From: Bacteroidales bacterium
GTDB lineage: Bacteria > Bacteroidota > Bacteroidia > Bacteroidales > F082
Length of the DNA stretch: 64,000 nucleotides
NCBI GenBank assembly: GCA_017530365.1
Contig: JAFXMK010000007.1
Span: forward strand, 101,006 to 165,005
Reading direction: 5' to 3'
The position numbers and the translations under genes are program-made. A model generated the notes under the pieces. It did no database searches and was not told where the DNA came from. It saw only the letters and a program-made list of their open reading frames with translations. Within the stretch, counting starts at the first letter, position 1, and each line of letters begins with the position of its first letter. Of this stretch, positions 40,575 through 58,585 are shown one piece after another.

Positions 40575-42293
40575 ATGAAAAAGAAAGCCACGCTTGTTTT
40601 CCTCATCTTGTCACCACTGTGTATCCATGCCCAGAGTGGTGACACGGAAATGTCGTTGCCTGATTCCTTGGTGGATCGGTTGCGAATGAACAGGAATACC
40701 GATGAGGCGAGGGCGGAGGCTTTGGATGCGGTCATTCAGTTCTATGTTGAAGAGGAAAGGGTGCTGGAGGCTCAGCCATACATCAACGAGCTCTCAGCCT
40801 TGGCGGAGGAGTTGCAAGACCATTATTGGAAAGCTTCGAGTCTGTTGTATAGGAGCAAGTGCGCTTTTAAGAACTTTGATTTTTCAGAATCCACTTCTTT
40901 GATCAATGAGGCCTTGCGGATTGGAGAGACCTTGCGTGACACGCGGCGAACTCGGAAGCTCATGACGCGGATTTATTTGGCGAAGAGCGGGTATTGTCTT
41001 TATTACGATTATCTTCCTGAATGTTTGGATTATATTGAAAAAGGAAAGCGACTCGCTGAGGCTAACGGCTTTGACGAATTGAGGGAGAGTATTCGTAACA
41101 ATTATGGTGTTTTATTGTTGAGAATGAATCGTCCCGATGAGGCCATTACTGTATTTAAATCAATGTTGACAAGTAAGGACCGTCTAAAATCTTTGCTCAA
41201 CATCGCTTGTTGCTTTCAGGTGACTGAACAATATGATTCCGCCTTTTGCTATTTTGATAGTCTAATCTTTGAGCTGTCGGTGAGGCCGCTTTATGATTAT
41301 GAGTTGCTTATTAAGGCACATATGGAGAGAGTTTGGTGTTATTTGTTGATCGGAGAGTATGAAGAGGCGTTTTCTTTCTTGAGCCAGTCTTATGAGATTA
41401 TCAATGCTTATGGTGAGACAGAGTTTTTTACGTTATATTATTACCTTCTTGCAGGATGTTATTTTGGAGTGGGTGAGTTTGAGGAGGCTTTGAGCTTGGC
41501 GGATACTGCTATTTTACTGTCAAGGGAAATCGGACAGATTTCATGGGAGCGGGATTTTGTCATGCTGAAATCCCACATTTTGAACAATTTGGGAGATCAT
41601 GAGGGAGAGGCAGTATGTTTACGTTATTTCAACGAATTGACGGATAGCCTTGACCATCGCAAGAACAGGGAGCGGATTTTGGAACAACAATACCAGGCGA
41701 CTGCGAGGGAGCAAGCGCTGGAGTACGAAAAGCAACGGATGATTTCGCATCAGCAATTGTTGTTTACGGTGGCATTATGCTCAACGCTTGTGGCGGTGGT
41801 CGTGCTGCTGTCGATGGTGTTTTTGTATAGGAGAAAGAAAAAAGCTGAAAAGATAGCATTGGATTTGGATTTGCGCAACCGTGAAATGGCGTCGAAGACG
41901 ATGAATCAGATGCAGGTCAACAAGGTGTTGGGCGAGGTGATCGAGAAACTCACCTATTTGAAAAACCATCCCAATAGTGGCGCTGTGAATTTGTCGATGG
42001 TGATTCGTGATTTAAGGAGCATGATCGACAATGGCTCGAAAAAAGACTTCGACTATTATTTTGTGCAGGTGCATCCTGACTTTTATTCGCGTTTGCAAGC
42101 GGACTATCCTTCGCTTACCCATAACGAGTTGCGCCTTTGTGCTTTCATCAAAGCCAACCTCAGCACCAAGGAGATTGCGGCTGTCACCAATATTGCTGTG
42201 GATAGTGTGAAAACGGCCCGAAAGCGACTGCGGAGGTCGTTGGGGTTGTCAGGCAAGGACATTACTTTGCAGGAGCTCCTTTCGCAGTATTGA
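40575..42293 (+). CDS. R1: transmembrane TPR-HTH regulator
   Basis: 572 residues from the ATG at 40575. A signal peptide (MKKKATLVFLILSP, cleavage near IHAQ) leads to TPR-like helices (about 25-360). The first block, LPDSLVDRLR then EARAEALDAVIQFY, recurs in R2-R4. A coiled stretch precedes one membrane helix at about 395-418 (VALCSTLVAVVVLLSMVFLY) followed by RRKKK. The cytoplasmic end has a conserved DFDYYFVQVHPDFY and a LuxR/GerE-like helix-turn-helix at about 514-556 (LTHNELRLCAFI, KEIAAVTNIAVDSVKTARKRLR). The topology puts TPRs in the periplasm and DNA binding inside: a ToxR-like one-component design. I infer that it controls the cargo genes 186 bp downstream. Confidence 0.82.
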   Translation: MKKKATLVFLILSPLCIHAQSGDTEMSLPDSLVDRLRMNRNTDEARAEALDAVIQFYVEEERVLEAQPYINELSALAEELQDHYWKASSLLYRSKCAFKNFDFSESTSLINEALRIGETLRDTRRTRKLMTRIYLAKSGYCLYYDYLPECLDYIEKGKRLAEANGFDELRESIRNNYGVLLLRMNRPDEAITVFKSMLTSKDRLKSLLNIACCFQVTEQYDSAFCYFDSLIFELSVRPLYDYELLIKAHMERVWCYLLIGEYEEAFSFLSQSYEIINAYGETEFFTLYYYLLAGCYFGVGEFEEALSLADTAILLSREIGQISWERDFVMLKSHILNNLGDHEGEAVCLRYFNELTDSLDHRKNRERILEQQYQATAREQALEYEKQRMISHQQLLFTVALCSTLVAVVVLLSMVFLYRRKKKAEKIALDLDLRNREMASKTMNQMQVNKVLGEVIEKLTYLKNHPNSGAVNLSMVIRDLRSMIDNGSKKDFDYYFVQVHPDFYSRLQADYPSLTHNELRLCAFIKANLSTKEIAAVTNIAVDSVKTARKRLRRSLGLSGKDITLQELLSQY

Positions 42294-42329
42294 AAGCCGG
42301 AATACCAGGCCTATCACCTCATTGTATCC

Positions 42330-42353
42330 CCCTGTTGAAGGGGCGTGTCCCCC
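42330..42353. repeat. CCCTGT/GGGG/TGTCCCC element after R1
   Basis: CCCTGTTGAAGGGG followed by CGTGTCCCCC. It closely resembles the element after R2 (CCCTGTCAAAAGGGG at 48772-48786, then ACATGTCCCC). Both can fold through CCCC/GGGG pairing. Attenuator, REP relic or binding site; not decided. Confidence 0.45.
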
Positions 42354-42396
42354 TCGTGTCCCCTATAAGTTAATGACATACAAGTGTTTTGCGATT

Positions 42397-42404
42397 TAAT
42401 TTTG
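42397..42404 (+). promoter_or_regulatory. Bacteroides-type -7 box for E1a-E1b
   Basis: TAATTTTG, 75 bp before the E1a ATG. No -33 TTTG at the right spacing, which would fit a promoter that needs an activator. The long leader is AT-rich with three TTAACA-like repeats. Confidence 0.45.
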
Positions 42405-42479
42405 CATTTGGATTCGATTCTCAATTTGGATTCGGTTTCAACACAATTAACATCAATTAACAATTAAAACATTTGTATT

Positions 42480-44726
42480 ATGAAAAAACACATTTACCTT
42501 ATCGCAATGGCGTCATTGTTTTTGTTCAGTGCCGCCCAACTCAACGCGCAGAACCGCCGCGTGTGGCAAAACGACAACGGGGCGACTGAAATCCTTACTT
42601 ATTCCGACGATTATAAGGTTTTGCGAAGCGACGACCGATCAATTGAATTAGTGTCATTCCGAGAAGTCAAGCCACAACAAAATGTAAATGGGCAGACCCA
42701 CACGTTGAATATTTATTTACCGCCGCCAGATTCTTCGTCCGTATATTTATTAGCTGTCTCTGACGGTTTTGACATCGTATATGCAAATGATGATATTTCG
42801 TTTTCGCAACTGAATCTAGAACTAAATGAAGGTGTGTATCATGTGATTGTAAGTGGCGTAACGGTTCATAGTGATGGACAACTTTATAGTGGTATTTGGA
42901 TTGAGGAGTGTATAAATCTTTTTTATGAAACAGATATATATGTTGATTTTACTGAATGTACTTATTCTATTCATTCTTATTTTGAGGATGAGAACGGAAA
43001 TCCTTTAGAAAACAATGAATTCGTTGGCTTTGCTTCAACATGTCATTTTATATGGAATGACATGTTAATTATTACGTATTTTCAAGTATTCAACGAAATT
43101 ACAGATTATAATCCGCTTATGCTGCCATCTTGGAATTTTAATGGATTTAGTAATAAGAGTATGTTTACGACTGCCCTTTTTGCTGAAGCAGAAGGCCAGA
43201 AGTCATATCACATTTCATATTACTGTGAGGGTTTACAAGAGGATGTGATTTTTTCCGTGACAGCTGAAGATCTGACCTCGTCAACGCAAATGTTTACAGC
43301 ACCTTATGAATCTGATAATCTATTTCGTTATTTGGCATGGAAGACCGTAGCTAGTAAAGGACCGTGGCTTATGGATGAACGTATTGATACAAGATTGCCG
43401 TATGACGCCAACCAGCCTTATACCGTTGTCTCTAATGTTCCAAAAGAAACTTCGAACCCTCAAAGACAAATTGCATTTATATTGCTTCCAAGTGTCTATA
43501 ATTATACCAATCTAGACCCGGATTATTGGTCAAGCTACGGTTATTATATAGGATCTTCGTTGTACTTCAATGAGAATGGAGAAGCGATTAGAGAGGCACT
43601 TCCTATGTTTAGACAATCCTGTTTTATCTCCGTGGGCTCTCCTAGCTTTCCCAACCATTTTCCTGAGACACCAGCCATGAAAGTCACTCCCCCCGACAAA
43701 ACACTCTATTTTGGTGAAAGAACGCCTTTGGCGACATACTACCCTCAGGCTTTTAATGCGCTCAATACTCCACTGCACATGAATTTCTTTTTGGGAGGCT
43801 TCTTCTTCAGTGGAGAGAACAGCTGTGAGCGATTGTGTGATTATGTCTCGCCCATTCGTGTTACTGTTGGTAATTATGAAATATATAACGATAGTCTTAG
43901 GAAGTTTAACTGGAGGTTGGGGCTCGGAGGAATTCAAATTGCTGGTGCTCCTTTGCCGGTGGAGGTGGAAGTGTACAATGACTACCTGATGGTTGAAGGA
44001 GTGCCCAAGAACAATTCCACTCAGGTCAATTTCGACCTCAACCGCGACGATGCCATGCCGCCGACTACGACTTTCCTACGAGTACTTGACGGTGATGGAG
44101 ATGAGGCCGTCCGTCTTGATGACTTGTCTCAATCGACATTGGTGTTCGGCTGTGGCGATTTCACATACCATTTTGAGCCATTGGTTAACGCTTATAATCT
44201 GAGGCTATACGATGCAAAACCCAGTGTAGAGGTTCTTTACAGCATAGAAGGAGAGGGTTGGCAGCCGCTTGCCATCACCGAAGACGAAAGCTTGTTCCAT
44301 ATTGAATACGGCAACGTGTTTGTCGCCGACTTGTCACAGCTTGAGAGCCGTGCGCTTAACAAGTGGGTGTCGTTGAAATTCATGTTGGAAGACGCAGCGG
44401 GCAACACCCAGGAGCAGACCCTTGAGAACGTGTTTTATGCGGGACATACCATCTCGGTCGATGAATATGCGGCCGAACGTCTTGAACATGAAGTAATCCC
44501 CAATCCGTTCACGGATGAGGTGCGCATCAAGTCAGCGCAGCCACTGGACGGCGTGGCTCGTGTCCAGCTCTACGATGTGCTTGGTCGGAGGGTGTATGAC
44601 GCCACGGAGAACGGCCATGCCGTCAACGAGTTCATCATCGATGGCAGCGCCTTGAAACCAGGCGTCTATTTTTATGACATCAACACCGAAAAAGGGGTGA
44701 TGCGAGGAAAAATCGTTAAACAATAA
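42480..44726 (+). CDS. E1a: T9SS cargo of an unknown family (R-linked)
   Basis: 748 residues. The signal peptide ends at LNAQ. The first mature residues NRRVWQNDNGATEILTYSDD and the later VKPQQ...HTLNIYLP recur in E1b and E2. A second shared region from about 395 reads ETPAMKVTPPDKTLYFGERTPL, then SGENSCERLCDY, then NRDDAMPPTTTFLRVLDGDGDEA and STLVFGCGDF. Near 580-655 an Ig-like strand set (VLYSIEGEGWQPLAI, DESLFH, YGNVFVADLS) precedes the T9SS sorting domain (IPNPFTDEVRIKS, GVYFYDI, KIVKQ). No enzyme motif is visible; it may be an adhesin or structural surface protein. The last 87 codons are almost identical to those of E1b. Confidence 0.8.
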   Translation: MKKHIYLIAMASLFLFSAAQLNAQNRRVWQNDNGATEILTYSDDYKVLRSDDRSIELVSFREVKPQQNVNGQTHTLNIYLPPPDSSSVYLLAVSDGFDIVYANDDISFSQLNLELNEGVYHVIVSGVTVHSDGQLYSGIWIEECINLFYETDIYVDFTECTYSIHSYFEDENGNPLENNEFVGFASTCHFIWNDMLIITYFQVFNEITDYNPLMLPSWNFNGFSNKSMFTTALFAEAEGQKSYHISYYCEGLQEDVIFSVTAEDLTSSTQMFTAPYESDNLFRYLAWKTVASKGPWLMDERIDTRLPYDANQPYTVVSNVPKETSNPQRQIAFILLPSVYNYTNLDPDYWSSYGYYIGSSLYFNENGEAIREALPMFRQSCFISVGSPSFPNHFPETPAMKVTPPDKTLYFGERTPLATYYPQAFNALNTPLHMNFFLGGFFFSGENSCERLCDYVSPIRVTVGNYEIYNDSLRKFNWRLGLGGIQIAGAPLPVEVEVYNDYLMVEGVPKNNSTQVNFDLNRDDAMPPTTTFLRVLDGDGDEAVRLDDLSQSTLVFGCGDFTYHFEPLVNAYNLRLYDAKPSVEVLYSIEGEGWQPLAITEDESLFHIEYGNVFVADLSQLESRALNKWVSLKFMLEDAAGNTQEQTLENVFYAGHTISVDEYAAERLEHEVIPNPFTDEVRIKSAQPLDGVARVQLYDVLGRRVYDATENGHAVNEFIIDGSALKPGVYFYDINTEKGVMRGKIVKQ
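44460..44720 (+). repeat. Near-identical CTD-coding segment, copy 1 (E1a)
   Basis: This 261-bp stretch aligns without gaps to 46687-46947 in E1b. By hand count about 19 bases differ and only one changes the protein (Val/Ile). The upstream parts of the two genes are far more diverged. Confidence 0.85.
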
Positions 44727-44739
44727 AAACCACAAAGTT

Positions 44740-46950
44740 ATGAAAAGATTATTTACATTCATTTCAACGACGGTCTTGCTCGTTGCAGGAGCCGCCCAAC
44801 TCAACGCGCAGAATCGCTGCGTGTTGCAAAACGACAAAGGAGCGACGGGTGTCATTACTTATTCTGACAATATGAAAGTCGCTCACCAACACAATGACCA
44901 ATCGGTCATGCTGATGACAAAAACCGAGGTCAAACCCCAAGTTAAAGGAGATCGTCCGACGCATACCCTTAACGTTTATTTGCCAGATGATTATACGCTT
45001 GATTTTGTGATATTAGTCAGTGATGGTGTGGATATCGTCGCTGCTCTTGATTCATGGAAGAAAGAAAACTTTCTCTCAGTTGACCTTGAGGAAGGCGTTT
45101 ACCATGTGTTGGCAAATGGTTATGCCGAACTTAACGATGACTTCAATGAATGCTTTTGGACCTACGAGGATTTTGAACTTACCCAGGATAGCAATGTCTA
45201 TATTGATTTCAATGAATGTGTTTACGGCTTGGATTGGTCCTTTGAAGATGAAAATGGGAATCCTTTAAATGAGTTGGAATTTCTTGATGTTGTTGAGGAT
45301 GTCTCATTAATATGGCAAAATTGTGTCTTGTTTTCATTTAATTATTTCACGGATATCATTGCGGCGGAAGACGTTAACCTTCGCTTTAATGGCTTCAGTG
45401 AGAACAGCAGTTTGTCATTGAATGTTTATGCTATGGCTGAAGGCCAAAAGAGCTACTGTTTCTCAAATTTCATAAAAGGTATGCATGAAGCTCCGGTGTT
45501 CACTGTGGCTGCTGAGGATTTGACCAAGACAACGCAATTGTTTACAGTGACAATGGGAATTGATTCCTGCTATTACCATACCGACAATAAAACAGTATTT
45601 ACTCAATTGGGTGGTTGGATGATGACTGCTGTGTTTAACGAAAGGCTTGTGTATTATCCGCAAGACCCCTATACCATCGTTGCGAATGTTAACAAGGATG
45701 CTTTAGCTGGCGGCGAAAGAAGAGAAGTTGAGGTAATCTTGCTTCCAACTGTTTATGAACGGCTTGATCCATTCGGATATGAGTTTCCTTTTATAGGTTC
45801 TTCCTTGTATTTCAATGAGAATGGAGAAACATGCTGGGAAGCCATGCCGTATTTTCGAGATGTTTCCAATCCGGCGCCTCCGAGTTATCCCGACTATTTT
45901 CCTGGGACACCAGCCATGAAGGTTACTCCAGCTGACAAAGTGGTCAATTTCGGGGAAAGAACGCCTTTGGTCACTTACTATCCACTGGCTGTCAATGCGG
46001 ACAATACACCGCTGAACCAGACTATTCTTCGAGGCGGTATCTATTTCAGCGGTGAGAACAGTTGCGAGCGCCAGTGCGACTATGACTCTTTCATTCAGGT
46101 TTATGTAGATGGACAGGAAATTTACAACGATAGCGTTTATAAGTTTAATAATTGTTGGGGTGAGTTTCAGCTTGATCCAGCTCCCGTTGTTGTTCAAACG
46201 ACAAACACACATTTGGTGGCTAATTGGGCGGGTAAAGGCAACGCTACTCGGATTGATTTCGACCTCAACCGCGACGATGCCATGCCTCCGACATTGACTT
46301 TCCTGCGGGTGTTGAACCAATATGGAGACGAAACCGTGTGGCTGGATGACCTGTCGCAATCGACCTTGGTGTTCGGCTGTGGCGATTTTGCCTATAACTA
46401 CGTGGATGAGGGGGGCTATTATTCAAACTTGATTTATGACGGCAAACCTGACGTGCTTATTCGATGTGGGCCTAACCCTATGCAAATGAGACCGCTATCA
46501 TTCCAGGAAGACGAGAGCCTCTTTCATCCGAATTATGGTAATGTGCTTGTGGCAGATTTGTCTGGGATTAACGGTCAGTTCGATAACCAGTGGCTAATAC
46601 TGCAAATTCTCCTCACCGATGGGAGTGGCAACACTCAGCTGCAAACGCTTCAGAACCTGTTTTTTACCGGCAATCCTTTATCCATAGATGAATATGCAGC
46701 CGAACGTCTTGAACATGAAGTGATCCCCAATCCTTTTACGGATGAAGTGCGCATCAAGTCGGCGCAGCCTCTGGACGGCGTGGCCCGTGTGCAGCTCTAC
46801 GATGTGCTGGGCCGGAGGGTGTATGACGCCACGGAGAACGGCCATGCCGTCAACGAGTTCATCATCGATGGCAGCGCTTTGAAGCCTGGCATCTATTTCT
46901 ATGACATCAACACCGAAAAAGGGGTGATGCGAGGGAAAATCGTCAAGTAG
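44740..46950 (+). CDS. E1b: T9SS cargo, tandem paralogue of E1a
   Basis: 736 residues, 13 bp after E1a and therefore in the same message. The signal peptide ends at LNAQ. It has the same order as E1a: NRCVLQNDKGATGVITYSDN, VKPQ...HTLNVYLPDD, VSDGVDIV, DLEEGVYHVLANG; then GTPAMKVTPADKVVNFGERTPL, SGENSCERQCDY, NRDDAMPPTLTFLRVL, STLVFGCGDF; then DESLFHPNYGNVLVADLS and the sorting domain. The middle (residues 150-380) is the most variable part, which suggests that it carries the specificity. Function unknown. Confidence 0.8.
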   Translation: MKRLFTFISTTVLLVAGAAQLNAQNRCVLQNDKGATGVITYSDNMKVAHQHNDQSVMLMTKTEVKPQVKGDRPTHTLNVYLPDDYTLDFVILVSDGVDIVAALDSWKKENFLSVDLEEGVYHVLANGYAELNDDFNECFWTYEDFELTQDSNVYIDFNECVYGLDWSFEDENGNPLNELEFLDVVEDVSLIWQNCVLFSFNYFTDIIAAEDVNLRFNGFSENSSLSLNVYAMAEGQKSYCFSNFIKGMHEAPVFTVAAEDLTKTTQLFTVTMGIDSCYYHTDNKTVFTQLGGWMMTAVFNERLVYYPQDPYTIVANVNKDALAGGERREVEVILLPTVYERLDPFGYEFPFIGSSLYFNENGETCWEAMPYFRDVSNPAPPSYPDYFPGTPAMKVTPADKVVNFGERTPLVTYYPLAVNADNTPLNQTILRGGIYFSGENSCERQCDYDSFIQVYVDGQEIYNDSVYKFNNCWGEFQLDPAPVVVQTTNTHLVANWAGKGNATRIDFDLNRDDAMPPTLTFLRVLNQYGDETVWLDDLSQSTLVFGCGDFAYNYVDEGGYYSNLIYDGKPDVLIRCGPNPMQMRPLSFQEDESLFHPNYGNVLVADLSGINGQFDNQWLILQILLTDGSGNTQLQTLQNLFFTGNPLSIDEYAAERLEHEVIPNPFTDEVRIKSAQPLDGVARVQLYDVLGRRVYDATENGHAVNEFIIDGSALKPGIYFYDINTEKGVMRGKIVK
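46687..46947 (+). repeat. Near-identical CTD-coding segment, copy 2 (E1b)
   Basis: Partner of 44460-44720. Differences are nearly all at third codon positions, which points to selection on the protein after a duplication or gene conversion. Confidence 0.85.
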
Positions 46951-46974
46951 TAAAACTTTTTTCAGTTCATTTTT

Positions 46975-47004
46975 GAAAAAGGGTGGCGTCAGCTGTCCTT
47001 TTTC
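46975..47004 (+). terminator. Terminator after E1b
   Basis: AAAAAGGGTGGC pairs with GCTGTCCTTTTT around GTCA, with G-T wobbles. It lies 25 bp after the E1b stop and ends 12 bp before the R2 -7 box. Confidence 0.7.
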
Positions 47005-47016
47005 TGCTAAAAACAA

Positions 47017-47024
47017 TAATTTTG
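47017..47024 (+). promoter_or_regulatory. Bacteroides-type -7 box of R2
   Basis: TAATTTTG. The ATG at 47026 is only 2 bp beyond it and so is upstream of the transcript; the ATGs at 47044 and 47050 are the usable ones. Confidence 0.55.
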
Positions 47025-47049
47025 CATGAACTATCTAGGAAAAATGACC

Positions 47050-48735
47050 ATGCGAAAGATGCTTCTTTTCTTTGTTTTCCTTTGCTCAATCAATGTTTTG
47101 GCGCAAAGCGAAGAACCTTTCCCGTTGCCCGACTCATTGGCTGGCCGGCTTAGGGAGTTTAGGAAGAACGACTTTGCGAGGGCGGAGGCCTTGGATGCGG
47201 CGATCAGGTTCTATCAAGAGATTGACAAAGTGCAGGACGCTAAAGGTTATATTCGAGAGCTGTCGTCATTGGCATATAACTTGAAAGATAATTATTATAT
47301 TGCTTTAAGTGACTATTACTTGGCAATTTATGACCTTGACAGGATGGATTATGAAGAGGCGCTTTATAGAATCCACAAGGCACTTGAATGCGTGGAGATG
47401 CTTCCAACATCAGGACGTACGGAACGATTGACGGCAAGACTCTATATGGCTCTGGGCAACTATTATTCCGATAAAAGAATGTTATCCGAAAGCTATGATG
47501 CGATTCAAAAAGGACTTGAGGTCGCTGGCGAGAACGACCGGGAAATCTATCTCAAGTTAATTAACAATCTTGGAAACGTCTATTTAAAAGGAGGAAACAG
47601 TCTGGAAGCGGAGAGGCTTTATAGGGAATCCCTAAAACTCCATAAATCGTTGCCCTACAGGAATATGGCAACGATTTATGCGGAAAACCAGAATTATGAT
47701 ACAGCGCTGATTTATACCGATTCAGCACTGATGTACGCGATTTCCTCCTATGATACTATGAGTGTTAATCACTTTAAAGGAGTGATTTGTTTAGGGAAAG
47801 GTGATATAGCACAAGCGAGCCTTTACTATGATAAGTGCCTGAGAGGAGTGCATTCTTGCAGCGATGCTTTTTTTAATTCGGTGGTGTATCAGAATTCTGC
47901 CTATATTTCCATGGAAAAAGGTGATTTTGAGCAAGCCATGGCTTTGATTGACACTGCTATTATGATTGCAGATGAGATGAACAATGTTCACAGAAAACTG
48001 GATTGTCTGCGACTTAAAGCCATACTCTTAAGCGAGATGAATGATCTTGAGAATAGCTTGAAATGTATGGCTGAGTATAGTTTCACTCGCGATTCCATCT
48101 TGGTGAAGCAGGATAACGAGAGGTTTCTCACCCATGTTCATGACTATGAAACAGGAATAATCGAACAACGTTACGAAGCCGAAAAAGCCATTGCGAAACA
48201 GCGACAAGGCTTTATTCTTGTCATAGCAGTCTTAATAGTCTTCTTTACTGTGATGACGACTTCTATCTTTATCAGGAATCGTCGTCAAAAGGAATTGTTG
48301 TTGAAACAAGAGCTTGACTTGAAGAATCGGGAGGTTACTTCCGATTCGATTGGCAAAATACAAAGCAACGAAATGCTGAACGACATCATTGAAAAGCTGA
48401 CCGAGATGGAAGTTCGCACCGATAAAGATATGCTGCCAAGTGTCATCCGTGATCTGAAAACGCTTGTTCATAACGATGCCAAGAAAGATTTTGACCTGCA
48501 TTTCGTTCAGATTCATCCTGATTTTTATCAAAAACTGCTGGCAGATTATCCTAGACTTACCCAAAATGAATTGAGGCTCTGCGCACTCATAAAATCGAAC
48601 CTGAGCGTCAAGGAGATAGCCGCCATCAATGGAATATCCGCAGAAAGCGTCAAAACAGCCCGAAAGCGTTTGCGCAAATCCTTAAACCTGACAGGAGAGG
48701 ATGAGAGTTTGTTGAGTTTTTTATCAAAGTATTGA
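47050..48735 (+). CDS. R2: transmembrane TPR-HTH regulator
   Basis: 561 residues from the ATG at 47050 (MRKMLLFF), which has AGGA at a good distance upstream; 47044 is also possible. Same plan as R1: signal peptide to VLAQ, block LPDSLAGRLREFRK then ARAEALDAAIRFY, TPR helices (YLKLINNLGNVYLKGGN), membrane helix at about 387-408 (FILVIAVLIVFFTVMTTSIFI), coiled linker, DFDLHFVQIHPDFY, and the HTH at about 503-545 (LTQNELRLCALI, KEIAAINGISAESVKTARKRLR). It is closest to R4 in its N-terminus and promoter. I infer control of E2, 160 bp downstream. Confidence 0.82.
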   Translation: MRKMLLFFVFLCSINVLAQSEEPFPLPDSLAGRLREFRKNDFARAEALDAAIRFYQEIDKVQDAKGYIRELSSLAYNLKDNYYIALSDYYLAIYDLDRMDYEEALYRIHKALECVEMLPTSGRTERLTARLYMALGNYYSDKRMLSESYDAIQKGLEVAGENDREIYLKLINNLGNVYLKGGNSLEAERLYRESLKLHKSLPYRNMATIYAENQNYDTALIYTDSALMYAISSYDTMSVNHFKGVICLGKGDIAQASLYYDKCLRGVHSCSDAFFNSVVYQNSAYISMEKGDFEQAMALIDTAIMIADEMNNVHRKLDCLRLKAILLSEMNDLENSLKCMAEYSFTRDSILVKQDNERFLTHVHDYETGIIEQRYEAEKAIAKQRQGFILVIAVLIVFFTVMTTSIFIRNRRQKELLLKQELDLKNREVTSDSIGKIQSNEMLNDIIEKLTEMEVRTDKDMLPSVIRDLKTLVHNDAKKDFDLHFVQIHPDFYQKLLADYPRLTQNELRLCALIKSNLSVKEIAAINGISAESVKTARKRLRKSLNLTGEDESLLSFLSKY

Positions 48736-48771
48736 TAATCAAAAGATCAGATTGCTTGTCTCCCAATTGTT

Positions 48772-48796
48772 CCCTGTCAAAAGGGGACATGTCCCC
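48772..48796. promoter_or_regulatory. CCCTGT/GGGGACATGTCCCC palindromic element after R2
   Basis: GGGGACATGTCCCC (48783-48796) is a perfect 14-bp palindrome. It is preceded by CCCTGTCAAAA, matching the element after R1. It sits 21 bp upstream of the E2 -33 box, a place that suits an activator or repressor site. Confidence 0.5.
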
Positions 48797-48816
48797 GATT
48801 TGCATAAGGTTGTACT

Positions 48817-48847
48817 ATTGACAAAGACTTGGTTTGACATACTTTTG
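48817..48847 (+). promoter_or_regulatory. Promoter of E2 with TTGACA repeats
   Basis: ATTG (48817-48820), 19 bp, TACTTTTG (48840-48847). TTGACA occurs at 48818, 48834 and 48860, and inverted (TGTCAA) at 48775. The whole element aligns without gaps to the E4 promoter. Confidence 0.6.
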
Positions 48848-51097: not shown

Positions 51098-51117
51098 GCT
51101 TTTTCGTTTCATTTGTG

Positions 51118-51146
51118 AAAAAGGACGGCAAAAGCCGCCCTTTTTT
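51118..51146 (+). terminator. Terminator after E2
   Basis: A stem of AAAAAGG, one mismatch, CGGC closes on AAAA with GCCG, CC and a T run. It is a diverged relative of the terminators in the two duplicated blocks. Confidence 0.75.
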
Positions 51147-51210
51147 GCTAATTGGACGTATTTTCCTGCTGTTTGCGAAAAAGCGCTTGCCTTGTATTTT
51201 TTAAAAACAC

Positions 51211-51218
51211 TACTTTTG
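51211..51218 (+). promoter_or_regulatory. Bacteroides-type -7 box of R3
   Basis: TACTTTTG with CTTG 21 bp upstream (51186-51189). A TTG-initiated frame from 51192 would start before the transcript, so the ATG at 51246 is chosen. Confidence 0.5.
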
Positions 51219-51245
51219 CAAGTATTACCGAACGAACTTGCCGTA

Positions 51246-53009
51246 ATGAAAAAAACTCTTCTTATTATATTATTGATTCTTGCGGGCATTTCAGCAACTG
51301 CACAGAAAGACGGTTTCCATATTCCAGACAGCCTCCTTGTTGCACTCGAAAAGAATCCACAACAGGACATGGCTCGTGTAGAAGCCTTAACTCGTATAAT
51401 CATCTATTATACCAAGAACAGACAAATCATCCAAGCCGAACCGTATATTGATGAGATAATTCAAATCTCAGAAATAATTGACGATGAATATGTTAATGCA
51501 TTAGCAGACCTCTATGAAGGCAATCTGTTGTTCAGCCAGGACAAATATCAAGATGCGCTGATGTACTTAAAAAAGAGTCTTAAACAGGTGCCGTATTTGC
51601 CACAAAACGATAAGACACTCGAACTTGAAGCAAAGGTTTTAAACTCACTCGGAGCTCTGTTTTGTAACATGCGTTTGTATTATGAGGGATATGAGTATCT
51701 ACTGAAAGCACTGGAAACATGCAAAAAGATCAATGACCAATACTTGATTTCTGTAATTGAGACAAATATGGCAACGCCTCTCAACCAAATTGGAAGATGC
51801 GATGAAGCAATAGCTTTGTGTGAAAAGAATCTGACAAAAGGAGTAGGTTTAACCCCCAATAGGTTTATTCTGTATTTGATATTGTCCCAAAGTTACAAAA
51901 ACAAAGCCTCTTATGACACAGCACTAATATACAACGATTCCGCATTCATGCATGCAGTGAATCGTTACGATGAATCAAAAAATTTAACAGAACAAGCAGC
52001 GCTATATATAAAAAAAGGAGACAATGAAGCTGCCATAAAAACTTATAAGTATATATTGGACAATTACAGAAATGAAATGTTCAAAGACGCAGAGATTATT
52101 GCATTATGCGATTATGGTTATTTGATCGGCCTAGATTCCATGTCGGATTTGGCAATCAGCTATATTGACAGTGCTATAGTAAAGGCCAAAGAATTCGGAA
52201 TCCCAAAACTCGAAAAAGAGTGTTATGCGAGCAAGGTAGAGTTGTTTTACAAGCATCACGAATATCAGGAATTTGCCGAAAGTACCGCAAAATACATTTC
52301 ATTACGCAACAGTATCGATTCTGCAAACGACCTTCGGCGGTTGGAAAACGCCTGGATTTCACAGGAATTCAAGAAGACAGAGGAACAATTGCGGCTGGAA
52401 AAAGAATTGAGCGATATGAAAAATGAGAGGGCAAAAATGCGTCTCTATTTTATTATTTCTGGCTTAATATCAATCATTGTAATCTTGGCCCTGGCTTTCA
52501 ACAGAAGAAACATCTTGATGAAAAACAAAGACATACAGCTGAAAAAACAGGAGTTGGAGAAAGAAGTCCTGAACAGGGAAATAGAAACACGCAATCGGGA
52601 ATTGACCGCCAAGGCTTTGGTGCAAGTGCAAAGACAGGAATTACTGACCGAAATGGCCGACAAGCTTAACGCAATTGTCGATGACAAACATAAAATTGCT
52701 CAGAATCTGAAAGAAGTGATAAACGACATTGAAAAGTACAAAAACTCCACAACACCAGAAGATTTCGACTATTACTTCACCCAAACCAACCCCGATTTCT
52801 ATAAGCATCTGCTTGCCGATTTTCCGAATCTTACCCCATACGAACAGCGGCTCTGCGCATTCTTGCGATTGAACCTAAGCACCAAGGATATAGCTTCAAT
52901 CATCAATATAAGCCCAGAAAGTGCCAAAGTGGCAAGAGCACGTCTTCGCAAAAGTCTAAACCTAGTAGGAAAAGAAGAGGATCTGACGGCATTTCTATCA
53001 AAATATTGA
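51246..53009 (+). CDS. R3: transmembrane TPR-HTH regulator (divergent member)
   Basis: 587 residues from 51246 (MKKTLLIILLILAG, cleavage near ATAQ). The opening block is IPDSLLVALEKNPQQ then ARVEALTRIIIYY, more distant from R1, R2 and R4. TPR helices follow, then a membrane helix at about 398-418 (YFIISGLISIIVILALAF), a long K/E-rich coil (LKKQELEKEVLNREIETRNREL), DFDYYFTQTNPDFY and the HTH at about 528-570 (LTPYEQRLCAFLRLNLSTKD, INISPESAKVARARLRKSL). Its codon use is more AT-rich than that of its neighbours. Its cargo, E3, belongs to another family. Confidence 0.82.
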   Translation: MKKTLLIILLILAGISATAQKDGFHIPDSLLVALEKNPQQDMARVEALTRIIIYYTKNRQIIQAEPYIDEIIQISEIIDDEYVNALADLYEGNLLFSQDKYQDALMYLKKSLKQVPYLPQNDKTLELEAKVLNSLGALFCNMRLYYEGYEYLLKALETCKKINDQYLISVIETNMATPLNQIGRCDEAIALCEKNLTKGVGLTPNRFILYLILSQSYKNKASYDTALIYNDSAFMHAVNRYDESKNLTEQAALYIKKGDNEAAIKTYKYILDNYRNEMFKDAEIIALCDYGYLIGLDSMSDLAISYIDSAIVKAKEFGIPKLEKECYASKVELFYKHHEYQEFAESTAKYISLRNSIDSANDLRRLENAWISQEFKKTEEQLRLEKELSDMKNERAKMRLYFIISGLISIIVILALAFNRRNILMKNKDIQLKKQELEKEVLNREIETRNRELTAKALVQVQRQELLTEMADKLNAIVDDKHKIAQNLKEVINDIEKYKNSTTPEDFDYYFTQTNPDFYKHLLADFPNLTPYEQRLCAFLRLNLSTKDIASIINISPESAKVARARLRKSLNLVGKEEDLTAFLSKY

Positions 53010-53122
53010 TTTTGGCCAATTTAACTCCCGCACCACGCAGTGGTAAACAAAAAATCTCTTCATGTTATATTAAAGTTTCCGTCAGGACTAGGCTTTGTTA
53101 TCCTCATGTTATCCTCAAAAAT

Positions 53123-53153
53123 TTTGCCTGTCATGGGTTGATGTGCAATTTTG
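53123..53153 (+). promoter_or_regulatory. Candidate promoter of E3
   Basis: TTTG (53123-53126), 19 bp, CAATTTTG (53146-53153): an imperfect -7 box with a good -33. It lies 27 bp before the ATG at 53181. Confidence 0.45.
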
Positions 53154-53180
53154 CATCGCTAACCTTAAATTTTAAGCAAA

Positions 53181-54416
53181 ATGAAAAAACTTTACAAATT
53201 ATCAATTGCAGTGGCATTGTTATTTGGTGCCACTAGTGCAAATGCACAAAACCCCGATGTTTATGTCGGAGGAATCAAAAATAATCAAGCCGCTATCTGG
53301 AAAAACGAAGATCCGACGGTAATTGCTAATGGCGATGATGTATCTGCTATGGTAGTAATCGGCGATGACGTATATGCCGCTGGCAAGAGCCAGGGAGGTG
53401 GATCGGTTTGGAAAAACAACGAAGTGCTATTCACTCTCAGTGAATTTGATTTTTATGACAGATTCGTAACTTCCATGGCCATTCACGGCGACGACGTGTA
53501 TGTAACCACTAATGAAATGTCATCTTCGGATTGGTCGTTTATTGGCAGGCTGTGGATTAACGGAGTCGCTTCTGACGATTATGCTGATGCAGCGGAACTC
53601 TCTGGAATTTGCTTTGATGGCGATGACATTTATGTTGCAGGTAGAACTAATGAAGAAGCAGTAATATGGAAGAATGGAGAACCACTTTACACGTATACTT
53701 CAAGCGTCACGGGGATGTTCACCGACGTGAAAGTGGTCGATGGCGATGTGTATTATATCGGTGGTGATTTTGGCGGAAATGGAAAATGCACAGCGATAAA
53801 GGATCGAGAGTGCCTTAATGTAAATCATGAGAATAACAGGGATCTCAGTATTAATATATGGAAAAACGGCGAAGTTCTCTATACTCTTGCCAATGAAGCT
53901 TATGGGCTAACACTTGCCGTCTCCAACGGGACAGTCTATGCTTCCGGACAAGTCCCCAACAGTTCAATATTCAAAGCCATAGTTTGGGTAAATGGTGAAG
54001 GTACTATAATATCCGACGAATGGAGTGGCGCCCAAGGAATGTGCGTACATAATGATAATGTATATGTGACAGGTTTTGCGGGTAACCTACCTGAATTAGA
54101 TACTTTTATATGGAAAGATGGAGTACTTACAACCTTTACCTCAGATGGATATGATATGGGATACTGCATTGAAGTAGTGGACGGAAGTACTGGAATTGAA
54201 CAAATAGATAACTACAGTGCTATATATCCCAATCCGGCCGACAGTTTTATTACAATAGAAGGCGTCCGTTTTGAAGAAGCTGTCATCTACAATAGTTCAG
54301 GTCAAGTAGTTGTTACTTCTAGAAACAACACAATTGATGTATCCTCTTTGGAATCTGGAGTTTACTTGTTAAAAGTTGATAATAATCTCACAAGAAACAT
54401 TGTTATCAGGCACTAA
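53181..54416 (+). CDS. E3: seven-bladed propeller-like T9SS cargo
   Basis: 411 residues. The signal peptide ends at ANAQ. The mature part is seven repeats of about 45-55 residues, each with a strand like DDVYVAG followed by a W(K/I/V)(N/D) turn: AAIWKNE, GSVWKNNE, GRLWING, AVIWKNGE, INIWKNGE, AIVWVNGE, TFIWKDG. Seven units fit one closed beta-propeller. The final 70 residues are a T9SS sorting domain (IYPNPADSFITIEG, GVYLLKV, NIVIRH). Propellers of this kind bind proteins or sugars; no catalytic residues are evident. It is unrelated to E1, E2 and E4 outside the sorting domain. Confidence 0.8.
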   Translation: MKKLYKLSIAVALLFGATSANAQNPDVYVGGIKNNQAAIWKNEDPTVIANGDDVSAMVVIGDDVYAAGKSQGGGSVWKNNEVLFTLSEFDFYDRFVTSMAIHGDDVYVTTNEMSSSDWSFIGRLWINGVASDDYADAAELSGICFDGDDIYVAGRTNEEAVIWKNGEPLYTYTSSVTGMFTDVKVVDGDVYYIGGDFGGNGKCTAIKDRECLNVNHENNRDLSINIWKNGEVLYTLANEAYGLTLAVSNGTVYASGQVPNSSIFKAIVWVNGEGTIISDEWSGAQGMCVHNDNVYVTGFAGNLPELDTFIWKDGVLTTFTSDGYDMGYCIEVVDGSTGIEQIDNYSAIYPNPADSFITIEGVRFEEAVIYNSSGQVVVTSRNNTIDVSSLESGVYLLKVDNNLTRNIVIRH

Positions 54417-54447
54417 ACGAGAACTTTGTTAAATTGTTTGAGTGCAA

Positions 54448-54468
54448 GGCCGGATTGTGAAAGAGTAA
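54448..54468 (+). pseudogene. Fossil tail of a lost E-type gene
   Basis: The bases translate as GRIVKE-stop, the exact ending style of E2 and E4 (GKIVKE, GRIVKE), but no cargo frame leads into them. They are followed by the same terminator and promoter block as E1b to R2. Confidence 0.65.
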
Positions 54469-54489
54469 AACTTTTTTCAGTTCATTTTT

Positions 54490-54519
54490 GAAAAAGGGTG
54501 GCGTCAGCTGCCCTTTTTC
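54490..54519 (+). terminator. Terminator between E3 and R4
   Basis: AAAAAGGGTGGC with GTCA loop and GCTGCCCTTTTT. A better stem than its copy after E1b. It may serve E3, about 70 bp upstream. Confidence 0.75.
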
Positions 54520-54531
54520 TGCTAAAAACAA

Positions 54532-54539
54532 TAATTTTG
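54532..54539 (+). promoter_or_regulatory. Bacteroides-type -7 box of R4
   Basis: TAATTTTG, identical in context to the R2 box. The ATG at 54541 is too close to be in the message. Confidence 0.55.
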
Positions 54540-54564
54540 CATGGACTATCGAAGAAAAATGACC

Positions 54565-56262
54565 ATGCGAAAGATATTGTTCCTTTTCCTGCTCCTGTTT
54601 TCGATCAACGCCTTTGCCCAAAGTGCGGAAAATCCGTTGCCCTTGCCCGATTCGCTGGCCGGGCGGTTGCGGGAGTTCAGAAAACCTGACCTTGCACGAG
54701 CCGAGGCTTTGGATGCCGCCATCGTGTTTTATCTTGAGAAAGACCGGATATTGGAAGCTCAAGGGTTTATCAATGAACTGGTCTCATTGGCAAATGACTT
54801 GGGCGAAAACTACTATTGCGCCTTGGGTGGCTACTATCGTGGCCTTTGTGAGTTGAAGAAATATCATTACGGTGAAGCAATCACTGTGCTCGATGAGGCA
54901 TTGCGGCGCGCGGAATTGTTGCTCCTCACTGACAAGACCAGAGTGCTGACAGCGCGTATTCATCTGGCCCGCAGTTCCTACTTTACGTCCATGAGCATGT
55001 TTCCCGATGCTTTTGAAACCATCAATAAAGGATTGGAGGTGATTCAGAATGCCGATGTGGAGGTGAGAAGCCGTTTATTGAACAATCTGGGAAATATCTA
55101 TGCTGACACTGATAACAGCCGAAAGGCTCTGAAGACCTATTCGGAAGCTTTGGCGAGTCATGCGATGATGGTGCACCATTATAACATAGCAACGGTTTAC
55201 TGTGATCTGGAAAGCTACGACAGTGCATTGGTTTACATCGACTCCGCATATATGCTGTCCGCGTCTTTGAGCGACAGCTTGAGGATAAAACAACTGGAAG
55301 GATCGGTTTGTCAACGGCAAGGAGACATTGGCAGACGCAACCAATGCAATGAATATTGCTTGGGCAAGATACCCCTTTGTCATGATGACGGCATTGTGAT
55401 GACTATTTATTTGAACAGTGCGGATTTGGCGGCGGCTAGCGGTGAATATCGACAGGCTTTGGACTTGGTCGATCTTGCTATTGATGTGGCGTTTCGGCTC
55501 CAAAACGAGACTATGATCATGGATTGCCTCAAACAGAAAGCTTATATTTTGAAAGGAATGGGGGATTATGAATACAGCTTGGAATGCATGATGCGATACG
55601 ACTCTATCCGTGATGCCATGTTGGGGCATCAAAATAGGGATAGGGTGAATGAAAGCATTCGCAGGATGGAAACCGAGCGGTTGGAGCGTCAATTCGAGGC
55701 AGAGAGGAGAGAGGCGAGGCTTCGACAGCGTTTCATTGGCATCATCGCTTTGCTGGCCGTGGTTCTTGTCGGCTCCATAGTCTTCTTCTGGGTGCGAAAC
55801 AAACGGCAACGCGAGGCGTTGCTGAAGAAGGAATTGGATTTGCGCAACCGTGAAGTGACCTCCAAGACCATGAGCCAGATGCAGACCAACGAAGTGCTGA
55901 ACGAAGTCATCGAGAAGTTGACACATTTGTCGAATAATCCCAAAGGCACTGGAAATCCACTCCCCATGGCGATTCGGGAGCTGAAGAGCCGAGTGGATGA
56001 TGGTGCCAAAACAGATTTCGATTACTATTTCGTCCAGGTTCATCCTGATTTTTATGCTCATTTGAAAAAAGACTTCCCCGATCTCAGTCAGAACGAATTA
56101 CGCCTTTGTGCCCTCATCAGAGCCAATCTCAACATCAAGGAGATTGCTAACTTGAACAATGTCAGCATCGACAGTGTGAAGTCGTCCCGAAAAAGATTAC
56201 GTAAATCATTGGGAATCCTTGACTCCAAGGTTGACCTGGTGGACTTTCTTTCAAAATACTGA
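54565..56262 (+). CDS. R4: transmembrane TPR-HTH regulator
   Basis: 565 residues from 54565 (MRKILFLFLLLFSI, cleavage near AFAQ); 54559 is an alternative. The block LPDSLAGRLREFRK then ARAEALDAAIVFY is nearly that of R2. TPR helices (VRSRLLNNLGNIYADTDNSRKAL), membrane helix about 390-411 (FIGIIALLAVVLVGSIVFFWV), coil, DFDYYFVQVHPDFY, and HTH about 506-548 (LSQNELRLCALI, KEIANLNNVSIDSVKSSRKRLR). Likely controls E4, 154 bp downstream, whose promoter region holds repeated TTGACA sites. Confidence 0.82.
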   Translation: MRKILFLFLLLFSINAFAQSAENPLPLPDSLAGRLREFRKPDLARAEALDAAIVFYLEKDRILEAQGFINELVSLANDLGENYYCALGGYYRGLCELKKYHYGEAITVLDEALRRAELLLLTDKTRVLTARIHLARSSYFTSMSMFPDAFETINKGLEVIQNADVEVRSRLLNNLGNIYADTDNSRKALKTYSEALASHAMMVHHYNIATVYCDLESYDSALVYIDSAYMLSASLSDSLRIKQLEGSVCQRQGDIGRRNQCNEYCLGKIPLCHDDGIVMTIYLNSADLAAASGEYRQALDLVDLAIDVAFRLQNETMIMDCLKQKAYILKGMGDYEYSLECMMRYDSIRDAMLGHQNRDRVNESIRRMETERLERQFEAERREARLRQRFIGIIALLAVVLVGSIVFFWVRNKRQREALLKKELDLRNREVTSKTMSQMQTNEVLNEVIEKLTHLSNNPKGTGNPLPMAIRELKSRVDDGAKTDFDYYFVQVHPDFYAHLKKDFPDLSQNELRLCALIRANLNIKEIANLNNVSIDSVKSSRKRLRKSLGILDSKVDLVDFLSKY

Positions 56263-56265
56263 ATA

Positions 56266-56287
56266 TCAATATTTTGAAAAATATTGA
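56266..56287. repeat. AT-rich inverted repeat after R4
   Basis: TCAATATTTT and AAAATATTGA form a perfect 10-bp inverted repeat around GA, starting 3 bp after the R4 stop, with CACCTTTTT next. A weak terminator or a binding site. Confidence 0.5.
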
Positions 56288-56349
56288 CACCTTTTTGACA
56301 CTTTCTTCTTTCGTTTTGACACCCGTAAAACACGTCTTTGCCCTTGACA
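56284..56349 (+). promoter_or_regulatory. TTGACA direct-repeat array upstream of E4
   Basis: TTGACA starts at 56284, 56295, 56316 and 56344. The first three steps, 11 and 21 bp, keep the sites on one face of the helix; three of the four continue as TTGACAC. The last copy overlaps the -33 box. Candidate operator for the neighbouring regulator. Confidence 0.5.
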
Positions 56350-56373
56350 AACTTTTGGCTTGAGTTACTTTTG
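56343..56373 (+). promoter_or_regulatory. Promoter of E4
   Basis: CTTG (56343-56346), 19 bp, TACTTTTG (56366-56373). It matches the E2 promoter in both boxes, in the TTGACAAA lead-in and in the AAAATGAT that follows. Confidence 0.6.
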
Positions 56374-56416
56374 TGCTCAAAATGATCAGTCAAAAAAATG
56401 TCAAACTAAAAAATTA

Positions 56417-58585
56417 ATGAAAATGAAAAAACTATTACTTTTAAGCATGACACTTTTTGTGGGATTTTTCAGCATTCCCATCATGGGTCAAAACAAATGT
56501 ACGGTTGGTAATACCACTGTTTACAGTTCTGAGAATGTCATATGTTGTCCTTTGGGGGACGATGCCATAGCGACCGTTGCCCTGCCGAAAACAAAAAAAA
56601 CCGTAGATTTCTGTGGCCGTGATATGTTCGCCCTATCCGTTGAGCCTACTTTTGAGTGCAATCACATTGGTATCTGGAGCGACAATGGGTTTGAGTATTG
56701 GGAGAATGTCAGTTCTGCAAATGTTGAAGTGCCCGAAGGACATTATAGCGTTTCATTGACAGGAAGTGATGATGAAGGTTTTATACTTCTTGCTTACGAA
56801 ATCGATGTGCATGAGAATACTAGCCTAAGTCCGGAAGCCAGTGAAGCTACAACATATTTTGTAATTGAGGCGGAGGACGAAAATGGCAACAATCTGTACG
56901 ATGCCCCTTTGGGAATTGATTCTCGGATTTTCGTTGATTATTACTGGAAGGGAGATTATAGCTATGGCATAAGTCAAACGCTGTCCCCCAATCCTTTCAA
57001 GTACAATTTTATCCCTGATGATTGTTTTATTGTTCCTGTTGGTTTTTATTATACTACGGAAGGCCAAAAGGAATATTGTATTAGATTTGATACGATTTTT
57101 GAATCATCCAATGGTCATACAATTAATCATGGAGAGGATTTATTGACTTTAAAGCAATACTATCATTTCAGCGATTCTGATTCCACTGCTTGTTTCAACA
57201 TGAATTATCGTGTCGATTTTGGTAACAATGGTTGGTCTAAATCGACGCATGGTGCTGGAAGGGACGCTTCCTTCGATGAGAAAATCCCGTTGTCAATCAT
57301 TACTAATATTAAGGATGACCATCCAGAGAGGTTTGAGCCCAAAGAGATGAAATACCGTATTTTCCCCATTGTGTATGAATCACTGGTCCATTATGACATG
57401 TTGTTCCATGATGATTTTACCCATTCGGCCATGTCTATCAACGCCGATGGTCAGTTTGTTAGGGAACCCTTCGACGAGATCCTTAACCAAGATTTACGTG
57501 CCTTGTATCATCAAAGTTACCCCAACCATATTCCACTGACACCTGCTTTGATGGCTATGGAACCCAATGAGAGTCATTACATTGGATTCAGGACGCCAAT
57601 GTGGTATTTCCAAGGTATCGGATTCAGTTCCAATGGCCCAATGGGATTCCCGTTTTATGGAGGCATACTATGCTCTTTCGGAGAGGAGGGCGTAATGCGC
57701 CCTATGGATGACGAGTTGTTGGTAAATGTGATCTACAATGGTGAGGACCAGATCTACCATGATTCAATTTATCTCTTTAATTGGGAATGGAATTTCGTAT
57801 CGCCTGGTGAAGGAGTCATAGCCATGGATGTTGAAAACAACCGTGTTGAAAATCAAGGATTGGTCATGGCAAACAGAACACATATTGAGTTTGACTTAAG
57901 CAAAGACGATGCTTATCCCCCAACAATGACCATTCTTCAAGTTGTGAACCAGAATGGCAAAGAAAGTATTGATATTCATAATCTTAATAATTCCTCCATA
58001 AACATTGCTGCTGGAGATTTTATTATTGATATGGATATCGTCCAGCAGCAGATTAATTGCATGAACTATTATGATAAACCAGAAATTGAGGTGTTGTATT
58101 CCATCGACGGCGCTAATTATGAGCCGTTGGAGGTGTATGAGGATGAATCCATGTTCCACGTGAATTATGGCAACTTTTTCGTGGTCGATTTGGGTCAATT
58201 GGAAGGAATTGCCAACGACAAATGGGTCAGCCTGAAAGTCACTGTGACCGATGCGCAAGGTAATTTCCAGACACAGGAGTTAGACAACTTGTTCTATGCT
58301 GGCCAATTTACTTCTATTAATGAGGATATGATGACGAGCAAGAACCACACCGTTCACCCCAACCCCTTCACCGACGAGGTTAGGATTGCGACTTCCGATG
58401 CCGTGAACGGCTCGGCCAATGTCCAAGTTTACAATGTGTTGGGAGAGCAGGTCTATCAAAAGACCGTCAATTGCACGGATACCAAAGAGTTCATCATCGA
58501 TGGCAGCGCCTTGAAACCAGGCATCTATTTCTATAGCATCAACACCGAAAACGGCCTGATGCAAGGAAGGATTGTGAAGGAGTAG
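56417..58585 (+). CDS. E4: T9SS cargo of the E1/E2 family (divergent N-terminus)
   Basis: 722 residues from the ATG at 56417 (MKMKKLLLLSM, cleavage near IMGQ). The N-terminal third differs from E1a, E1b and E2, with only NKCTVGNTTVYSS as a faint echo. The second half is shared: TPALMAMEPNESHYIGFRTPM, then SKDDAYPPTMTILQVVNQNGKES, DESMFHVNYGNFFVVDLGQLEG. The sorting domain (HPNPFTDEVRIATSDAVNG, GIYFYSI, GRIVKE) is close to that of E2, and a DNA stretch in it equals E1a, a sign of patchwork exchange. Function unknown. Confidence 0.78.
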   Translation: MKMKKLLLLSMTLFVGFFSIPIMGQNKCTVGNTTVYSSENVICCPLGDDAIATVALPKTKKTVDFCGRDMFALSVEPTFECNHIGIWSDNGFEYWENVSSANVEVPEGHYSVSLTGSDDEGFILLAYEIDVHENTSLSPEASEATTYFVIEAEDENGNNLYDAPLGIDSRIFVDYYWKGDYSYGISQTLSPNPFKYNFIPDDCFIVPVGFYYTTEGQKEYCIRFDTIFESSNGHTINHGEDLLTLKQYYHFSDSDSTACFNMNYRVDFGNNGWSKSTHGAGRDASFDEKIPLSIITNIKDDHPERFEPKEMKYRIFPIVYESLVHYDMLFHDDFTHSAMSINADGQFVREPFDEILNQDLRALYHQSYPNHIPLTPALMAMEPNESHYIGFRTPMWYFQGIGFSSNGPMGFPFYGGILCSFGEEGVMRPMDDELLVNVIYNGEDQIYHDSIYLFNWEWNFVSPGEGVIAMDVENNRVENQGLVMANRTHIEFDLSKDDAYPPTMTILQVVNQNGKESIDIHNLNNSSINIAAGDFIIDMDIVQQQINCMNYYDKPEIEVLYSIDGANYEPLEVYEDESMFHVNYGNFFVVDLGQLEGIANDKWVSLKVTVTDAQGNFQTQELDNLFYAGQFTSINEDMMTSKNHTVHPNPFTDEVRIATSDAVNGSANVQVYNVLGEQVYQKTVNCTDTKEFIIDGSALKPGIYFYSINTENGLMQGRIVKE

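Follow-up and report, generated by a model that had tools for sequence, protein, structure and literature searches.

In a 64,000-nt stretch of a Bacteroidales genome of the F082 lineage (the window, meaning the whole of this stretch), four regulator genes (R1 to R4) alternate on a single strand with five genes for cargo of the type IX secretion system, T9SS (E1a, E1b, E2, E3 and E4), forming an array at positions 40575..58585. According to our analysis, each R is probably a dedicated transmembrane (TM) one-component regulator of the next gene, most likely an activator. By profile comparison R1 to R4 are distant full-length homologues of SusR, and we regard them as membrane-spanning regulators of the SusR-like kind whose specialisation is the control of single T9SS cargos; of their operator we found no description. 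Such an arrangement suggests a private on-switch for every one of these surface proteins. The source assembly is metagenome-derived, 2.67 Mb in size and 88% complete.

The four regulators can be aligned end to end, R2 to R4 being 29-39% identical to R1, and tetratricopeptide repeats (TPRs) exceed a Pfam cut-off in each of them. All have a single hydropathy peak, 173-187 residues before the C-terminus (weakest in R2, at 1.81), and a DFD-F-Q-PDFY block with the variants DFDLHF in R2 and NPDFY in R3. The N-terminal signal was assigned by eye; only R3 and R4 pass a hydropathy threshold in this region. The signal peptide, repeats, single helix and conserved block which a preliminary description of this DNA had ascribed to all four are thus borne out, the signal by eye. 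Its LuxR/GerE-like helix-turn-helix (HTH) is partly recovered: GerE (PF00196) matches R1, R2 and R3 at 14.5, 19.1 and 13.3 bits, below the gathering score of 23.5 bits, and no match is listed for R4. In a wider sample of R homologues, described below, the TM peak was present in 117/117 unique proteins, its median distance from the C-terminus being 184 residues, and in 90/117 the 15-residue segment behind the helix was more positive than the one in front of it. The single helix, the flanking charge and the signal assigned by eye therefore place the TPRs on the outer side of the inner membrane and the HTH on the cytoplasmic side, which supports the one-component topology proposed earlier. When the R profile was compared with the PDB, the best 60 of 335 matches were all TPR proteins, and a Padloc scan of R1, R4, E1a, E3 and E4 gave zero matches.

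All five E proteins pass the sorting-domain models PF18962 (39.5-50.9 bits; cut-off 27) and TIGR04183 (41.1-49.6 bits; cut-off 23), and together with a signal peptide, assigned by eye, they have the features of T9SS type A cargo. This confirms that each R is followed, in the same direction, by T9SS cargo (E1a and E1b, E2, E3, E4). E1a, E1b, E2 and E4 are homologous and form one family, in which the sorting tail is the sole Pfam domain above cut-off; the recognisable relation of E3 to the others is confined to the signal peptide and the tail. Comparison of the E profile with the PDB gave 6 matches, the best three across the C-terminal part. The SprA translocon is present in the same genome, at 1923 and 592 bits in one 2568-aa frame.

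We then asked how general the pairing is. Homologues of R were found at E≤1e-30 in 68/119 genomes of the window's family, representing 15/16 genera. The sample, whose loci have handles of the L series, comprised 80 regions from 14 family genera, chosen mostly for their high scores, together with 59 loci of named genomes; after removal of duplicates and of proteins shorter than 450 residues, 117 unique R remained, 83 of them from the family. The closest R proteins in named genomes come from gut or rumen Bacteroidales, namely bacterium F082, RUG265, Candidatus Limimorpha equi and Tb.RUG.288. The next gene (+1) carries a sorting domain after all four R of the window and after 56 of the 89 homologues for which the C-terminus of the +1 product is in view; beyond these 89, the +1 gene was cut in 19 cases and not visible in 9. 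The preceding gene (−1) does so in 17/101 cases, 14 of the 17 lying on the same strand and including cargos of a previous cassette. Enrichment of sorting-domain genes next to R homologues, which the preliminary description had proposed to count, was thus obtained. Moreover, the 39 same-strand +1 genes of the family sample that were called cargo with our own profile all match PF18962 (E≤0.001). Among 40 distant R from a phylum-wide sample, 4 of the 38 visible +1 genes have a sorting domain, and 22 rows of TPR histidine kinases gave sorting-domain cargo once at +1 and five times at +2, in four of the latter behind a response-regulator-like gene. The pairing is therefore strong within the window's family and among its close relatives, and weak outside them.

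The gaps between R and E in the window contain Bacteroidota-type promoter elements and, upstream of them, short direct repeats spaced by 11 bp that differ from gap to gap (Table 1). In 63 R-to-cargo gaps, repeats of period 11 occurred in 13 (expected 0.5), of period 21/22 in 6/5 and of period 32/33 in 9/7; period-11 repeats were found in 0/57 gaps upstream of R and in 2/90 other gaps. We formulated a four-box test for direct repeats at 0, 11, 32/33 and 43/44 bp and reran the window gaps with 500 shuffles. At p≤0.05 it was positive in 29/63 R-to-cargo gaps (expected 3.2), four control spacings giving 0-5. Leaving aside the 4 window gaps, where the pattern was first seen, the operator is found in 25/59 R-to-cargo gaps; it is found in 37/94 clusters when similar gaps are grouped. 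Positive results at the same level were also obtained in 14/41 gaps where R precedes another kind of gene or a truncated one (controls 0-6) and in 10/29 gaps of the distant R (controls 1 each), as against 1/57 gaps upstream of R and 1/7 TPR-kinase gaps. In the window, the gaps upstream of R1, R2, R3 and R4 gave p=0.60, 0.38, 0.99 and 0.70 in this test, that is, no operator. The boxes consist of a TTGT core and 4-5 variable bases and are arranged as two pairs, with 11 bp inside a pair and 32/33 bp between pairs; this spacing puts all boxes on one face of the DNA. The fourth box, which was not used in detection, matches the other boxes at 4.64/8 positions compared with 2.38 out of phase (n=45, p=2.6e-8). 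As far as sequence evidence goes, the target promoter thus carries the operator expected for a cis-acting one-component regulator, and the phased boxes ahead of the cargo promoter support the earlier proposal that R would control the adjacent surface protein.

Box sequences differ between R1/R2, R3 and R4. The pair TGTCCCC-N4-TGTCCCC of the E1a operator, the pair TGTTATCC-N3-TGTTATCC of the E3 operator and the pair TTGACAC-N4-TTGACAC of the E4 operator each have a single occurrence in the 2.67-Mb genome when up to 1 mismatch is allowed, and the first box pair of the E2 operator has one when up to 2 are allowed; every one of these occurrences is in the pair's own gap. Cross-talk may exist between R1 and R2, since both have TGTCCCC-like boxes. 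In several cases a recognition helix has the same box in different genomes: helix SIDSVKSSRKRLRK goes with box TTGACACC in R4, L069 and L151, helix SLRSIDVARTRLR goes with TTGTAGTAAA-like boxes in L093, L098, L103, L122 and L096, some of which are close orthologues, and R3 and L072 have in common helix ESAKVARARLRK and a TGTTATCC-like pair. Over 46 operators, HTH similarity correlates with box similarity (Mantel r=0.30, p=0.0005; r=0.14, p=0.005 given the TPR). At L069 (14-2101, in genome G118 of the same genus), an R4-like R and the operator are followed by a 695-aa E-family protein without a recognisable sorting domain, which has possibly lost its sorting tail.

Promoters of Bacteroidota have a TTG at −33 followed by TAnnTTTG at −7. 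In the window, the −7 boxes or candidates of E2, E3 and E4 lie at a nearly constant distance from box 3 (Table 1), and that of E1a about 52 bp from it. Of 46 operators, 16 have an exact TAnnTTTG downstream, a feature that played no part in detection; in 10 of these 16 it is found 50-51 bp past box 3. Sites that keep a constant distance and lie ahead of −33 point to R being an activator.

Several observations weigh against this reading. The +1 gene is on the same strand and lacks a sorting domain in 24/89 cases, and it lies on the opposite strand in 9/89. The operator was non-significant in 34/63 R-to-cargo gaps, and 30/46 operators have no exact −7 box downstream. For E1a, the boxes fit the TTGT register less well, and no −33 TTG is found at the usual spacing. 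L148 has an R2-like helix but different boxes. TPR similarity correlates with box similarity at r=0.31 (r=0.15, p=0.0005 given the HTH); TPR and HTH thus track the boxes equally, and the tests do not tell a recognition code apart from common descent. Other intergenic gaps are mildly enriched for the pattern as well, with 15/164 at p≤0.05 (expected 8.2) and 7 at p≤0.01. This last excess would be expected if the phased repeats were the sites of another DNA-binding protein acting on surface genes generally. We find that very improbable, for the repeats are rare upstream of R, in several cases the box sequence tracks the R helix from one genome to another, and the box pairs of the window are absent elsewhere in the genome. 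Repression of the next gene by R must be considered too, since some repressors act from upstream and the sequence contains nothing against it; the position of the boxes relative to −33 and −7 is nevertheless that expected of an activator, and SusR, the distant homologue, is an activator (PMC3878776), so that we hold repression to be quite unlikely.

Could the pairing itself be a coincidence, with a single accidental pair spread by tandem duplication among abundant T9SS genes? PF18962 matches 112 places in the genome (E≤0.001), and the array contains duplicated stretches. However, the pairing recurs in a sample from 14 family genera as well as in further named genomes whose R and cargo are divergent, it is directional (+1 versus −1), and the gap carries the operator; these facts contradict coincidence, which is hardly credible. 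The nature of the signal is another matter. The preliminary description envisaged that R senses a periplasmic state, perhaps unexported cargo or a ligand. In a cargo-feedback reading, the periplasmic TPRs would bind their own unexported cargo or its sorting tail, and R would adjust cargo transcription to export capacity. Sensor and cargo do usually diverge together (TPR versus cargo body in 60 pairs, Mantel r=0.78; 0.67 given the HTH), and the TPR profile matches, among many other proteins, the peptide-binding TPR proteins NprR and Rap. Linked vertical inheritance would yield the same correlation, however, and behind other regulators of this type the next gene encodes a TonB receptor, a cupin or a globin. 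Moreover, R3 is 61% and 51% identical over its full length to the R of L070 and L072, whose cargo belongs to the E1 family and matches E3 only in the signal-peptide region. Cargo sensing is therefore unsupported, and we judge it unlikely; an exported or surface-derived ligand, as for SusR, appears to be a more likely signal than the cargo itself.

The conservation of R3 in front of different cargos also indicates that cargo can be exchanged under a kept sensor. The orthologous locus L151 has the same flanking genes and only R2-E2-R4-E4, its R2 and R4 being 68% and 78% identical to those of the window; cassettes have therefore been gained or lost at this site. The segments before R2 (46945-47060) and before R4 (54461-54575) are 95.7% identical over 116 bp and are likely a recombination point for such gain or loss. 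The tails of E1a and E1b (44400-44716 and 46627-46943) are 88.6% identical in DNA and the bodies 47% identical in protein, which suggests gene conversion or a recent tail exchange. At L077 (4951-10251, in genome G072 of the same genus), a gene like that at window 39279-40478 is followed by a shortened R, with 216 aa in frame, and two E cargos; this regulator may be degraded.

Among known systems, SusR of Bacteroides thetaiotaomicron (NF058541) shares the plan of R, with a periplasmic repeat sensor, one TM segment and a C-terminal HTH, as judged by hydropathy and profile comparison. The R profile matches 6 SusR homologues over the full length (hhalign 99.3%, 1e-20, 470 columns). R remains below the SusR family cut-off of 480 bits, R1 scoring 21.1 and R2 to R4 being unlisted at E≤0.1. 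SusR is described as a membrane protein whose sensor lies in the periplasm and whose DNA-binding part lies in the cytoplasm; it binds maltose and switches on the sus operons, and the sites predicted for it are direct repeats 67 or 77 bp apart (PMC3878776). The boxes found at R are 11 and 32/33 bp apart, and 1/6 downstream and 0/4 upstream gaps at SusR-homologue loci reached p=0.05 in the four-box test. The targets differ: SusR controls starch uptake, whereas R precedes T9SS cargo, and the neighbours of R in the window are T9SS cargo genes instead of SusC/SusD or glycan-enzyme genes.

BT_3442, according to PMC2954219, is a Bacteroides protein with TPRs, encoded at the head of a putative operon in which predicted lipoproteins and pore-forming proteins abound. 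Its family (NF053779) matches R4 from before the TM segment through the HTH (1.2e-9); the best R score is 37.5 bits against a family cut-off of 940 bits, and the operator was found in 0/4 BT3442-family loci (2 of them scoring over the cut-off of the family and 2 under it). TPR histidine kinases, FimS (NF053520) among them, have a TPR-TM sensor half homologous to R, with matches ending near position 440, and R carries an HTH where they have the kinase. At L280, L283, L291 and L296, a TPR histidine kinase and a response-regulator-like gene are followed by T9SS cargo, possibly a two-component version of the regulator-cargo pairing. PorX, PorY and SigP provide global control of T9SS genes through a two-component system and a sigma factor; R differs as a one-component regulator linked to one cargo gene or operon. 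A Flavobacterium two-component system and a SusR homologue have been described, and the R-cargo pairing does not appear in the available parts of those papers (PMC5127042, PMC10316084). By title and abstract opening we found no report that pairs a TPR-HTH regulator with T9SS cargo, most subscription journals and preprints lying outside this search. The earlier view that no such system has been described is to be qualified: within this search it holds for the pairing, and the regulator itself has a known membrane-spanning relative in SusR.

Outside the window's relatives, R-type regulators that have the operator stand in front of genes for TonB receptors, for a cupin or for a globin, and the R class is therefore not specific to T9SS. 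Distant TPR-HTH regulators lie directly 5' of TonB-dependent receptors at L251, L254, L258, L263 and L268 (5 confirmed); L251, L263 and L268 carry the phased operator, L263 and L268 being alike.

The coordinates of the array are collected in Table 1. E1a and E1b are probably on one transcript, and E2 likely starts at the ATG at 48896 rather than at a TTG at 48752.

Table 1. Genes, operators and promoter elements of the regulator-cargo array (window positions)
Feature	Position	Strand	Details
R1 regulator, signal peptide-TPR-TM-HTH	40575..42293	+	ATG at 40575
E1a operator	42313..42363	+	42313 (degenerate), 42324 GTATCCCC, 42345 GTGTCCCC, 42356 GTGTCCCC; p=0.002
E1a −7-like box	42397..42404	+	TAATTTTG; Bacteroidota promoter motif
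E1a, T9SS cargo	42480..44726	+	PF18962 39.5 bits
E1b, T9SS cargo	44740..46950	+	PF18962 39.6 bits; 13 bp 3' of E1a
Terminator-like hairpin 3' of E1b (by eye), then R2 −7 box	46951..47025	+	−7 box TAATTTTG at 47017
R2 regulator	47044..48735	+	start 47044, alternatively 47026
E2 operator	48756..48807	+	48756 TTGTCTCC, 48767 TTGTTCCC, 48789 ATGTCCCC, 48800 TTGCATAA; p=0.01
E2 promoter	48818..48847	+	TTGACA...TACTTTTG; −7 box 51 bp after box 3
E2, T9SS cargo	48896..51097	+	PF18962 50.9 bits
R3 regulator	51246..53009	+	start 51246
E3 operator	53062..53113	+	53062 ATGTTATA, 53073 AAGTTTCC, 53095 TTGTTATC, 53106 ATGTTATC; p=0.002
E3 candidate −7 box	53146	+	CAATTTTG; 51 bp after box 3
E3, T9SS cargo	53181..54416	+	PF18962 45.1 bits
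R4 regulator	54559..56262	+	start 54559, alternatively 54541
E4 operator	56284..56334	+	56284 TTGACACC, 56295 TTGACACT, 56316 TTGACACC, 56327 AAAACACG; p=0.002
E4 promoter	56344..56373	+	TTGACA...TACTTTTG; −7 box 50 bp after box 3
E4, T9SS cargo	56417..58585	+	PF18962 46.6 bits

Elsewhere in the window, a TPR protein with a signal-like start is followed by three T9SS cargos (545-10266), two of which resemble streptopain-type peptidases. The same genome also has lipoprotein-type TPR-TM-HTH genes, which stand outside the pairing counts. Three of them adjoin T9SS cargo, at L036 (6147-7613, on contig C21) and L039 (8178-11038, on contig C1); on C1 a pair of regulators, separated by a GATAGCTATCA-like repeat, has a cargo on either side. 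The two that were scanned are weakly DUF6377-like. This looks like a second regulator-cargo pairing; TPR-TM-HTH genes on C30 and C50 have no adjoining T9SS cargo.

We propose the following scenario for the array. The periplasmic TPR domain of R would act as the sensor, and the single helix and a coiled-coil-like linker would pass a change of state to the cytoplasmic HTH. The HTH would bind the paired direct repeats, whose geometry places them on one DNA face, and R bound upstream of −33/−7 would activate transcription of the T9SS cargo. To judge from the promoters and terminator-like hairpins, R and E are presumably separate transcription units. Differences in the HTH helix and in the boxes may prevent cross-talk between R3 and R4 and between either of them and R1/R2. 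Sensor, operator and cargo would form a cassette, and at one chromosomal site such cassettes would come and go and take up new cargo. On balance, we lean slightly towards a broader picture, in which a Bacteroidota-wide TPR-HTH class reads a common 2+2 phased operator through a helix-to-box code, and plug-in sensor-operator-cargo cassettes accumulate at a hot spot in F082/Limimorpha-type Bacteroidales.

In this system the regulator can be read from sequence, and so can its target and the DNA site at which it is likely to act. The operator sequences may be used to predict the targets of TPR-HTH regulators across Bacteroidota, and L251, L263 and L268 provide testable operators for other loci. Orthogonal regulator-operator pairs may also serve in gene circuits for gut Bacteroidales. 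T9SS bacteria can carry many surface proteins, and we found no literature on the switching of single cargos. If the broader picture given above is true, each of these surface proteins would have its own orthogonal induction channel.

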